A stretch of 64,000 nucleotides of DNA from Chloroflexota bacterium (lineage in GTDB: Bacteria; Chloroflexota; Anaerolineae; Promineifilales; Promineifilaceae), in NCBI GenBank assembly GCA_013112725.1, contig JABFFZ010000001.1, forward strand, positions 124,001 to 188,000, given 5' to 3'. Shown piece by piece: positions 2,672 to 40,660 of this stretch. The position numbers were made by a program, and so were the translations under genes. How positions within the stretch are numbered: the first letter of the stretch is position 1; each line of letters opens with the position of its first letter. The notes below the pieces were generated by a model that saw only the letters and a program-made list of their open reading frames with translations, ran no database searches and was not told the DNA's origin.

Positions 2672-2784
2672 CGCGGATTTTTTTGAAGGAGTTTAATATG
2701 GGTGCGGCACACCCCGATGAATGAAAATTCATAATTCATCCTTCATAATTCATAATTTTCAGAGGAGGTAAACGATATGGCCCG

Positions 2785-2879
2785 GTAAGCGTTCAGACTT
2801 GACAAGTTTATTACCAGAGGCAGTTGCCGCAATTCAGGCGCAAAAACTTGTCAAGTCTCCAGAGGAACTGAACGGTTAC
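2785..2879. mobile_element. 95-bp MITE-like element, copy 1
   Basis: The ends are GTAAGCGTTCAG (left) and the reverse complement of GTAACCGTTCAG (right): a 12-bp terminal inverted repeat with one mismatch. The inner arms contain ACTTGACAAGTTT and its complement. It is flanked by an exact 8-bp direct repeat, ATGGCCCG (2777-2784 and 2880-2887). Removing the element and one repeat restores a ribosome-binding site (AGAGGAGG, 2761-2768) in front of ATGGCCCGAATT, the natural start of the downstream gene. A second copy with its own 8-bp duplication lies at 7137-7230. No coding capacity. Confidence 0.85.
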
Positions 2880-3470
2880 ATGGCCCGAATTGCCTGGATT
2901 GAAGATGTGGATGCACAAGGAGAAGTGGCCGAGGTGTTTGCCCTGGCCCGGTCGCGCTCAGAGCGGGGGTATGTGGCCGATATTTTGCGCACCATGAGCC
3001 TGCGCCCGGACTTTTTGCGGGCAATCATGGATGCGTCCCGGCTGCATTTCTCCGATGGGGCACTGACCCGCGCCCAGCACGAGATGATCGCTTCGTATGT
3101 GGCGGCGTTCAACCGCTGCCACTACTGACTGAGTTCCCATGCCTGGTTCTTGCAGTTGCAAGGCGAACAGTATGCGGAAACGGCCGTAGCCCTACGCGCC
3201 GGTAATCTCGATTTAGCGACTATTACCCCGGCGGAACGCCTCCTGCTGGAATTTGTGGAAACCCTCACCCGCCATGCTTACAAAATCACCGACGAACAGG
3301 TGCAAGGTTTGCGCGACGTGGGTTGGAGCGACGCCCAGATTGCCGAGGCGGTGTACGATGGTGCGCTCTTTAACCTGTTTGTGCGCCTGGCCGATGCCTT
3401 TGACATTCATCCGCCGCCCATGATGGACCCGGATGGAGTGCCGACGGCCGTAAAACAGGTTGAGGATTAG
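2880..3470 (+). CDS. AhpD-like peroxidase-related selenoprotein (TGA read as selenocysteine)
   Basis: A 196-residue protein of the carboxymuconolactone decarboxylase/AhpD superfamily, if TGA at 3126-3128 is read as Sec. The frame is the same before and after this TGA, and the protein continues without a break (SSHAWFLQLQ...). The active site reads E68-x11-C80-x2-U83-x3-H87, which is the exact spacing of the AhpD site Glu-x11-Cys-x2-Cys-x3-His, with TGA at the second cysteine. AhpD-like CxxU selenoproteins are a known group; they act in thiol-dependent peroxide reduction. A hairpin lies 18 nt after the TGA, and selA is present at 39.2 kb. I start at ATG 2880 (MARIAWIEDVDAQGEVAEVF), typical for the family; a TTG-initiated extension into the MITE is unlikely. 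The MITE separates this start from its original Shine-Dalgarno, which may reduce expression. The alternative is a simple nonsense mutation. Confidence 0.75.
3146..3168 (+). promoter_or_regulatory. candidate bacterial SECIS hairpin
   Basis: Immediately downstream of TGA 3126-3128 the sequence can fold as GTTC-TTGC, loop AGTT, GCAA, a three-base bulge GGC, then GAAC. The lower stem can be extended by a further two pairs across a bulged G. The stem begins 18 nt after the TGA and the loop lies about 26-29 nt after it, the distance seen in bacterial SECIS elements, which are bound by SelB. The fold is by eye, and the loop is not identical to known consensus forms. Confidence 0.55.
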
Positions 3471-3524
3471 CAACAAAATATTCTATGCTAAAATGGGTAC
3501 GTGGAGACTTTGAGGAGATAGAAA

Positions 3525-3776
3525 ATGCAAGAAACAGAATTGCTGACGCGAATCAGTATCAACCCCGCCATTTTTGGCGGTAAACCGATAATTCGGGGGC
3601 GACGGCTGGCGGTGGAACATGTGTTGGGGATGTTGGCCGCAGGCGATACACCAGATGAGTTGTTGGCGGCTTATCCCTGGTTGGAGGCAGCCGATATTCA
3701 AGCCTGTTTACTTTATGCCCGAAAAGCGGTAGCTCAAGAACGAATTGAACCCTTAATTTTGGCAACGGCCGTATGA
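3525..3776 (+). CDS. DUF433 antitoxin-like protein
   Basis: An 83-residue protein with the DUF433 pattern: RISINPAIFGGKPIIRGRRL, then a helix-turn-helix-like region (VEHVLGMLAAGDTPDELLAAYPWLEAADIQACLLYA). DUF433 proteins are usually encoded beside PIN-like DUF5615 proteins and behave as antitoxin or DNA-binding partners. GAGGAGA sits before the ATG. Its stop overlaps the ATG of the next gene (ATGA at 3773-3776), confirming the pair. One ACGGCCGT palindrome forms its last codons. Confidence 0.8.
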   Translation: MQETELLTRISINPAIFGGKPIIRGRRLAVEHVLGMLAAGDTPDELLAAYPWLEAADIQACLLYARKAVAQERIEPLILATAV

Positions 3777-4122
3777 AAGTGTTGCTCGATACGTGCCTGT
3801 CTGGTTCTTTGCTTATGCCGCTTGCTAACGCCGGGCATGATGTCGTTTGGAGTGGAGCCTGGGAACGTGATCCGGGCGATGATGAAATCATGGCGCTGGC
3901 TCACCGCGAAGGGCGGGTATTGGTGACGTTGGATAAGGATTTTGGCATGTTGGCTGTGTTACAGGGAAACCTCACGCGGGGATTGTGCGGTTGGTGAATT
4001 TGTCTTTGAAAGAGCAAACGACCATTTGCTTCCATATTCTGCAAACATACGAATCGGATTTGAGGGTAGGCGCTATTATCACCGCCGAACAAGATCGTTT
4101 ACGAATCAGGATGCCAGAGTAA
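3773..4122 (+). pseudogene. DUF5615 PIN-like toxin, frameshifted
   Basis: The N-terminal part (MKVLLDTCLSGSLLMPLANAGHD, then RVLVTLDKDFG) carries the conserved Asp residues of DUF5615/PIN-like nucleases. The frame ends early at 3997. The family C terminus continues in another frame (HAGIVRLVNLSLKEQTTICF, to RIRMPE) with a stop at 4122. The total is one base short of 117 codons, so a single base was lost near 3965-3975, about where QGNL meets HAG. The toxin is probably inactive while its DUF433 partner is intact. A sequencing error in the C/G-rich stretch is the alternative. Confidence 0.75.
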
Positions 4123-7136: not shown

Positions 7137-7230
7137 GTAAGTGTTCAGTCCCTCAAGAGACCTGACAGATTTTTGGCCTGCAAAGTTTCAAGTTGAACTG
7201 GTAAAAAACCTGTCAGGTCTGAACGGTTAC
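7137..7230. mobile_element. 94-bp MITE-like element, copy 2
   Basis: The left end is GTAAGTGTTCAG and the right end CTGAACGGTTAC, flanked by the exact 8-bp direct repeat CATCGTCC (7129-7136 and 7231-7238). The long arm (GTTCAG, then TCCCTCAAGAGACCTGACA) resembles the right arm of copy 1, and the short arm resembles its left arm, so the two copies are inverted relative to each other. It sits between divergent genes (nuoN and a lipoprotein), where it could alter transcription. No coding capacity. Confidence 0.85.
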
Positions 7231-7268: not shown

Positions 7269-8080
7269 ATGAAAAAATTTACCCTTGTGTTGATTATGTT
7301 GCTGCTGGCTTTATTGTTGGCGGCGTGTAGTGGGACGGTCGGTTCAGAGCCAACGGCCGTGCCCGCTGCTGAAGAAGCCCCGCCCCCATCACCGGCATCC
7401 TCTGGCTCTGGCAGGAATTCCAGGACACGGCCGGAGAAAATGACATCACCGTAGACAATCCGGCCAATTACAACATCGTCTTCAACGAAGATGGCACGTA
7501 CAGTGGTCAGGCTGATTGCAACCGCATTGCCGGCAGCTACACATTGGATGGCGCGTCACTGACCATCCAACCCGGCATTTCCACGATGGCCATGTGCCCC
7601 GAAGGTTCGCTGGATGCGCAGTTCAACATGTTCTTGAGCAATGTGCGTACCTTTGTCATGGATGGGGATAATCTGGTGATGAATCTGTTTGCCGACGCGG
7701 GCAACATGGTCTTTGGCAATGGCGGCCCGTCCCCGGTGAATATGGCCGAAGTGACCGGCACGGTTTCTTACCTGGTGCGGATCGCCCTGCCGGATGACGC
7801 CAACTTGCTGGTGCAGCTTCAAGATACTTCGCTGGCCGATGCCCCGGCCGTGATTATGGGCGAATACAATGCGCCCACCAATGGGGTGCAGGCGCCGCTG
7901 CCCTTTGCCATTCCTTATGATCCGGCAGCCATTGAAGACAACCGCACCTATACCCTATCGGCGCGTATCACCGATGGGGTGGGTAATTTGCTGTTTATCA
8001 ATGACACATCCATTCCCGTAATCACCGGTGGCAACCCGACGACGGATGTGGAAGTGCTGGTGGTGCAGGTGAATCCGTAA
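7269..8080 (+). pseudogene. META-domain plus YbaY-like lipoprotein, one frameshift
   Basis: It starts as a lipoprotein: MKKFTLVLIMLLLALLLAAC with lipobox LAAC, then a Pro/Ala-rich linker. The frame breaks in a C run near 7380-7390. In the shifted frame a META/HslJ-like domain follows (LWLWQEFQDTAGEND, DGTYSGQADCNRIAGSYTLD, LTIQPGISTMAMCPEGSLD), then a YbaY-type domain (VTGTVSYLVRIALPDDANLL, PLPFAIPYDPAAIEDNRTYT). The full stretch is one base short of 271 codons. It would be an exported outer-face protein, perhaps binding small ligands. Homopolymer slippage, phase variation or a sequencing error are all possible; otherwise the coding quality is intact to the end, so decay would be recent. Confidence 0.75.
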
Positions 8081-39241: not shown

Positions 39242-40660
39242 ATGATAGATAACAACGCACAAATGCGTTTGCGTAAGCTGCCGGGGGTTGATCGGCTGCT
39301 GCAAATGCCGGAAACGGCCGTCCTCCTCACCACCTACGGCCGTACCCTCACCGTTGAAGCCCTACGCCACACGCTGGAAGACACGCGGACGGGTCTGTTA
39401 CAGGGCCAGGTCACGGCCACTTCGGCGGCGCTCAATGCCAGCGTACCTGGCCCCACCAGGTTAGTGCAAGCCGCTGCGGATTGGCTGGAAAACCTGCTCA
39501 CCCCCAGCCTGCGCCCTGTCATCAACGCCACCGGCGTCATTGTGCATACCAATCTAGGCCGCGCCCCCCTCAGCCAGGCCGCCCGCCAGGCCATAGACGC
39601 CGCCGCTCGCGGCTACAGCAACCTGGAATATGACCTGGCTGCCGGGAAACGCGGCTCGCGCCATGCCCACGCCACCCAACTGCTGCCCCGCCTCACAGGG
39701 GCCGAAAGTTCAATGGTGGTCAACAACAATGCCGCCGCCGTTTTGCTCATGCTCACCGCGTTGTGTCACGGCCGTCAGGTCATCATCAGCCGGGGCCAGT
39801 TGGTGGAAATCGGCGGCGGCTTTCGTATTCCCGACGTGCTGGCCCAGTCCGGGGCCACGCTGGTAGAAGTGGGTACGACTAACCGTACCCACCTGCGCGA
39901 CTATGCCCGCGCCATCAACGAACAAACGGCCGCCATCCTGGTGACGCATCACTCCAATTACAAAATCGTCGGTTTTACCAACGAACCCTCATTAGCAGAA
40001 CTGGCGGAACTGGCGCACACTCGCCAGTTGCCGCTGCTGTTTGACCAGGGCAGCGGCGCACTGTTAGACACATCTCCCTTTGGCCTTGACCCGGAACCAA
40101 CCGTGCCGGGCGGCATTCAGGCCGGTTGTGATCTGGTTGCCTTTAGCGGCGACAAACTGTTGGGTGGGCCACAGGCAGGCATCCTGGTGGGGCGGGCCGA
40201 CCTGATCGCCCGCTGCCAGCAGCACCCGCTGGCGCGAGCGGTACGCGCCGATAAACTCTGCCTGGCCGGATTGTCAGCCACGCTGACCCATTATGTGCAA
40301 GAGGAGGCGCTCACGGCCGTGCCCGTCTGGCGCATGATCAGCATGTCAGTGATAGAGGTGACGGCCGTAGCCCAAGAGTGGCTCGCGCACCTGGACGCAC
40401 ACGGCATTGCCGCCGAATTGGTAGACGGAGAATCCACCGTCGGCGGCGGCAGCCTGCCTGGAACCAGCCTGCCTACCCGGCTGGTCAGCCTGGCTACAAC
40501 CAACCCCGATGCCCTGGCGGCCCGGCTGCGGGCCGAAGCCATACCGGTGATTGGGCGCATTCAAGACGGCCGTTACCTGCTAGACCCGCGCACCGTTTTG
40601 CCCGAACAGGTTGATGATTTGTGGCAATCGTTGGTAAACTGTGCCCGGACGGAAAATTAG
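39242..40660 (+). CDS. selA: L-seryl-tRNA(Sec) selenium transferase
   Basis: A 472-residue PLP enzyme that converts Ser-tRNA(Sec) to Sec-tRNA(Sec) with selenophosphate. Motifs: LRKLPGVDRLLQ at the N terminus, VINATGVIVHTNLGRAPLS, GYSNLEYDLAAGKRGSRHAH, VVNNNAAAVLLML, ISRGQLVEIGGGFRIPDVLA, GTTNRTHLRDY, VAFSGDKLLGGPQAGI with the PLP lysine. I start at ATG 39242 (MIDNNAQM); the frame from 39191 only adds translated hairpin. selB, selC and selD are not in this window. Its presence means the organism makes selenoproteins; the AhpD-like gene at 2.9 kb is a candidate. Eight or so ACGGCCGT copies lie in or near it. Confidence 0.96.
   Translation: MIDNNAQMRLRKLPGVDRLLQMPETAVLLTTYGRTLTVEALRHTLEDTRTGLLQGQVTATSAALNASVPGPTRLVQAAADWLENLLTPSLRPVINATGVIVHTNLGRAPLSQAARQAIDAAARGYSNLEYDLAAGKRGSRHAHATQLLPRLTGAESSMVVNNNAAAVLLMLTALCHGRQVIISRGQLVEIGGGFRIPDVLAQSGATLVEVGTTNRTHLRDYARAINEQTAAILVTHHSNYKIVGFTNEPSLAELAELAHTRQLPLLFDQGSGALLDTSPFGLDPEPTVPGGIQAGCDLVAFSGDKLLGGPQAGILVGRADLIARCQQHPLARAVRADKLCLAGLSATLTHYVQEEALTAVPVWRMISMSVIEVTAVAQEWLAHLDAHGIAAELVDGESTVGGGSLPGTSLPTRLVSLATTNPDALAARLRAEAIPVIGRIQDGRYLLDPRTVLPEQVDDLWQSLVNCARTEN

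Follow-up and report, generated by a model that had tools for sequence, protein, structure and literature searches.

In AhpD proteins, the second cysteine of a CxxC motif, activated by a glutamate and a histidine, attacks the peroxide and the first cysteine resolves. A selenocysteine (Sec) counterpart of this site has been catalogued, as Table 1 of a 2026 review lists the selenoprotein family ‘AhpD-like protein, TIGR01926, CxxU’ (PMC13188914). The gene described here was found in a stretch of 64,000 nucleotides from a Chloroflexota genome (the window). It belongs to the same NCBIfam family and has the same CxxU placement of Sec, while a MITE lying on the start codon is a feature of the window copy. 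The class was thus already established, as the preliminary description of this DNA had stated, and the window gene adds a member whose start carries an unusual lesion. A second described family, the NF041238 alkylhydroperoxidase-related (seleno)proteins, is homologous and also has a CxxU site, but its model is 357 long with the motif CFYUT, whereas the window protein reads CHYUL and scored 70.1 bits (E 1.9e-19), below the curated cut-off of 175. We hold with high confidence that the gene encodes a selenocysteine-containing TIGR01926 AhpD-like protein, a thiol/selenol oxidoreductase with hairpin-directed Sec insertion, and that the MITE at its start probably leaves it poorly translated. The features are listed in the table.

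Features of the AhpD-like selenoprotein locus (positions in the window)
Feature	Position	Strand	Remarks
AhpD-like selenoprotein gene	2880..3470	+	196 residues if TGA is Sec; stop TAG 3468-3470 included
TGA, very probable Sec codon	3126..3128	+	residue 83, second Cys position of the AhpD CxxC motif; TGA in 53/53 subfamily members
C80, codon TGC	3117..3119	+	partner Cys of the CxxU motif; invariant in the alignment (19 rows)
SECIS-like hairpin	3148..3163	+	UCUUGC (3148-3153), loop AGUU (3154-3157), GCAAGG (3158-3163)
selA, selenocysteine synthase	39269..40633	+	562.6 bits to TIGR00474
MITE, 95 bp	2785..2879	+	IS66-type ends GTAAGCGTTCAG...CTGAACGGTTAC; multi-copy in genome; site uninterrupted in relatives; flanking repeats
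Target duplication, copy 1	2777..2784	+	ATGGCCCG; original start position, now reads ATG GCC CGG TAA
Target duplication, copy 2	2880..2887	+	ATGGCCCG; surviving start codon
Original Shine-Dalgarno	2762..2770	+	GAGGAGGTA; correctly spaced for ATG 2777 only

Once the TGA is counted as one residue, a single open frame runs through the whole gene. The motif E68-x11-C80-x2-U83-x3-H87 (E68 at 3081-3083, H87 at 3138-3140) has exactly the Glu/Cys/Cys/His spacing claimed for it in the preliminary description, a spacing shared by classical Mycobacterium tuberculosis AhpD. Both Pfam CMD and NCBIfam TIGR01926 matched the frame. The TIGR01926 match spans the TGA and passes the cut-off of 81.8 bits with 95.9 bits for the full frame; scored separately, the 5′ part reached 33.9 bits and the 3′ part 43.3 bits. 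The proposal that two open stretches are one gene interrupted by the TGA was borne out, and each half independently matches the family. The same family was matched by all 19 rows of the alignment. Between the window gene and same-genus copies, eight nonsynonymous codon differences were counted against 31 to 36 synonymous ones. By these counts, purifying selection has acted on the gene, whose coding sequence is intact.

The conservation of the TGA was followed in the subfamily. A contig scan with peptide patterns that excluded the TGA position gave 32 relatives, all 32 with TGA at the site, and further members came from profile searches of 301 Chloroflexota genomes and 37 near relatives. TGA occupies the codon of residue 83 in 53 of 53 members and Cys in none; these members include some duplicates, certain genomes being in both collections, with 37 distinct downstream regions, and they are related, so that the counts are not independent events. 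As all 53 homologues have TGA at this codon, its presence is not due to chance. An in-frame stop always leaves room for another reading, in which an ordinary nonsense mutation or a sequencing error produced the TGA and the gene is a split pseudogene, and here the window copy also has a MITE at its start. This is extremely improbable, given a same-codon TGA in all 53 homologues, from many genomes, protein conservation that continues downstream and the purifying selection on the gene. The pseudogene reading was rejected on the TGA common to the subfamily and on the Sec machinery described below, and there is a very high probability that the in-frame TGA truly specifies Sec.

In a tree of 66 proteins the subfamily forms one clade (support 100/98). 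The alignment with Cys-bearing AhpD-like proteins, which had been proposed as a check, did recover Cys homologues, all of them outside this clade. By record title, the hosts of the clade are Chloroflexota and Dormibacterota, with a single assembly each from Acidobacteria, Proteobacteria and Isosphaeraceae. The Proteobacteria label may be wrong, because the downstream region of that locus (L024) is identical to that of L072 from genome G032, which belongs to the window's own phylum.

In other Chloroflexota, TGA was found at this codon in further AhpD-like proteins (L088, L092, L096, L111-L121, L123-L126, L128, L130, L132 and L133), whose SECIS-like hairpins are different. Genomes of the same family often hold these other Sec types instead of the window's type. 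The hairpins of such distant proteins, from the same phylum and family, include CGGAGC-CGGGCU-GCUCCG and GACCUC-CGGGCU-GAGGUC. AhpD-like gene content also varies among five same-genus genomes and the window's assembly, and the window genome holds a further AhpD-like frame without a stop, which resembles Cys copies of relatives.

The AF2 model of the protein (pLDDT 89.6) shows the all-helical AhpD fold. Its best solved structural matches were the peroxidase-related AhpD proteins 6k40, 2oyo, 3c1l and 2prr, which share the fold with TM-scores of about 0.75-0.8 and have their CxxC at the place of the CxxU, with Cys where the window protein has Sec, at 25-29% identity. Classical M. tuberculosis AhpD (1knc, 1gu9) has an AhpD-type fold but is a weak structural match (E no better than 0.5, TM roughly 0.4-0.5). 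The debrominase Bmp8 (6ohi) also has the AhpD fold (Foldseek E 5e-3), and a main substrate other than peroxide, with the protein acting as a reductive dehalogenase or a disulfide/nitrosothiol reductase, has to be considered. No neighbour conserved beyond the genus points to a substrate: a partner gene sought in the neighbourhood was not found, and the two upstream genes are conserved within the genus only and have no Pfam match. The peroxidase-related structures, though mostly uncharacterised, match far better than Bmp8, and a non-peroxide substrate is regarded as the less likely option, while still a serious one.

The two upstream genes (585-2671) encode 549 and 146 residues and overlap by ATGA; the first product has an N-terminal zinc-ribbon-like CxxC pair and the second looks hydrophobic. 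Directly downstream, at 3525-3997, lies a DUF433 and DUF5615 (PIN-like) pair in a toxin-antitoxin-like arrangement. This pair is 100% identical in L020 and L107, versus about 96% for the selenoprotein, and is missing from L021 and L022.

The check for a bacterial SECIS element downstream of the TGA yielded a conserved SECIS-like hairpin. A hairpin beginning 18 nt after the TGA had been described; the hairpin is present but starts 19 nt downstream. The bSECIS model places the apical loop 16-37 nt after the UGA, with a G in the first two loop positions, a small loop and a stem of at least 4 bp (PMC13188914). The window hairpin agrees in spacing (25 nt), loop G (AGUU) and stem (6 bp). The model further sets −7.5 kcal/mol as the upper limit of the minimum free energy (PMC13188914); the values calculated were −6.1 for the isolated window hairpin, weaker than this limit, −11.8 for the 50-nt region, in which the lowest fold is a different one, and −10.8 with the hairpin forced, while the hairpin cores of relatives lie at −8.5 or lower. 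In the window the hairpin has a pair probability of 0.55. Compared with dinucleotide shuffles and synonymous recoding, the folding energy was not significant for most sequences, and an Rfam search of 2700-3500 gave no match.

Since thermodynamics alone do not set the hairpin apart, the case for it rests on conservation. With columns numbered from the TGA, RNAalifold on 18 sequences predicted one helix, between columns 23-28 and 33-38. Codon usage provides the best support. The Leu codon of the loop is TTG in 36 of 36 distinct Leu sequences, and TTG makes up 7.5% of 614 other Leu codons; this is the only Leu column fully invariant in codon, the remaining ones ranging from 45 to 91%. A single stem pair varies, where adjoining Leu and Gln codons covary as TTG..CAA or CTG..CAG, both silent and with pairing kept. 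As the sequences are related, these counts too are not independent, and the coupled change may represent one or two events. In L051, Arg-Ser replaces Gln-Leu and the stem still forms, with the loop GGUC.

The search for selB, selC and selD was successful for the whole set. A tRNA-Sec with anticodon UCA (69 bits) was found in the genome, and selA, which had been reported for it, is located in the window. The selD gene (contig C31) has one in-frame TGA near its N-terminus (AACAGUAAK; L140 1832-1834) and is probably itself a selenoprotein gene, by the look of this codon. For selB, an N-terminal piece of the first 348 residues runs off the start of contig C127 and a C-terminal piece of 261 residues enters from the end of contig C34; position, orientation and profile coverage suggest that these are one gene. 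The presence of selA does not separate genomes with TGA from those with Cys, as 68 of 75 sampled Chloroflexota genomes carry it. The TGA could in principle be decoded otherwise than as Sec, by general UGA read-through, by a recoded stop (TGA as Trp) or by a suppressor tRNA. The frame would be open under any such code, and nothing specific speaks for one; residue 83 aligns with the catalytic Cys, not Trp, the full Sec machinery is in the genome and the SECIS-like hairpin is conserved. The probability of non-Sec decoding is negligible; with the TGA shared and the Sec machinery present, the recoded-stop reading was rejected.

For decoding as Sec, the following course is proposed. SelB bound to Sec-tRNA would read the UGA as Sec, directed by the hairpin. 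By analogy with AhpD, the U83 selenol, activated by E68 and H87, would most likely attack a peroxide, and C80 would resolve the selenenyl intermediate to give an Se-S bond. A cellular dithiol would then reduce this bond, both the reductant and the substrate being presumed.

The preliminary description had overlooked the MITE directly before ATG 2880. The order at the start is Shine-Dalgarno, ATGGCCCG, 95 bp (2785-2879) and ATGGCCCG, so that the start codon is duplicated. In relatives (L020-L023 and L107-L110) the start reads ATGGCCCGAATTGCC uninterrupted, directly preceded by AAGGAGGTAAA in those with enough upstream sequence. The MITE has 41 matches in the genome at 96-100% identity, which suggests a recent burst, and 12 of 15 copies examined are flanked by 8-bp repeats differing in no more than one position. 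In same-genus genomes only diverged copies occur (about 71-93%), and a MITE interrupting the selenoprotein gene was found in none of the four checked.

IS66 elements have ends starting GTAAGCG, terminal matching ends of 20-30 bp and 8-bp direct repeats (PMC11946415). The MITE shares the GTAAGCG ends and the 8-bp repeats but is 95 bp long, without transposase, and its matching ends are about 12 bp. Two IS66 transposase matches were found in the genome. The locus on contig C6 has an end GTAACCGTTCAG identical to the MITE end (L138 1936-1947) and is a possible source of the MITE's transposase; a search for the other end of this IS66 copy did not find it. A second related element of 94 bp (GTAAGTGTTCAG...CTGAACGGTTAC), at 7137-7230 in the window, is bounded by a perfect 8-bp duplication (CATCGTCC); just downstream of it, at 7269, lies a small lipoprotein-like ORF.

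The arrangement shows that an IS66-type MITE has landed on the start codon. Through the 8-bp duplication an ATG was retained, but the strong Shine-Dalgarno now lies 103 bp further upstream. Ribosomes starting at the strong site would make only Met-Ala-Arg. The calculated duplex energy is −13.0 for ATG 2777, −6.0 for ATG 2880, where the pairing is badly spaced and too distant, and −3.8 before TTG 2799. As the strong Shine-Dalgarno has been displaced, expression of the window copy is probably reduced at the level of translation. It might be argued that the MITE has no effect, with efficient starts at ATG 2880 or at the upstream TTG 2799 provided by the element: the reading frame is already open at TTG 2799, a weak Shine-Dalgarno-like GAGGA is present in the MITE end and the coding sequence is intact. 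With the pairings available to these starts so much weaker than the original one, this is unlikely. Quite improbable is a role of the MITE as part of the gene's expression, whether through translation governed by the duplicated start codon and a weak ribosome site of the element or through an N-terminal extension that begins at TTG 2799. The preferred reading remains a poorly translated copy. Since the coding sequence is intact and under purifying selection, the insertion may be recent. The population could be polymorphic for the MITE, given that the genome assembly is fragmented and 83% complete.

An annotation that terminates at the TGA would yield two fragments from this gene. The clade described here, mostly Chloroflexota and Dormibacterota and well supported, extends a selenoprotein family already catalogued, with Sec retained, as TGA, in all members recovered. 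With the MITE at its start codon, the window copy amounts to a natural experiment, in which a selenoprotein gene has been deprived of its ribosome site.
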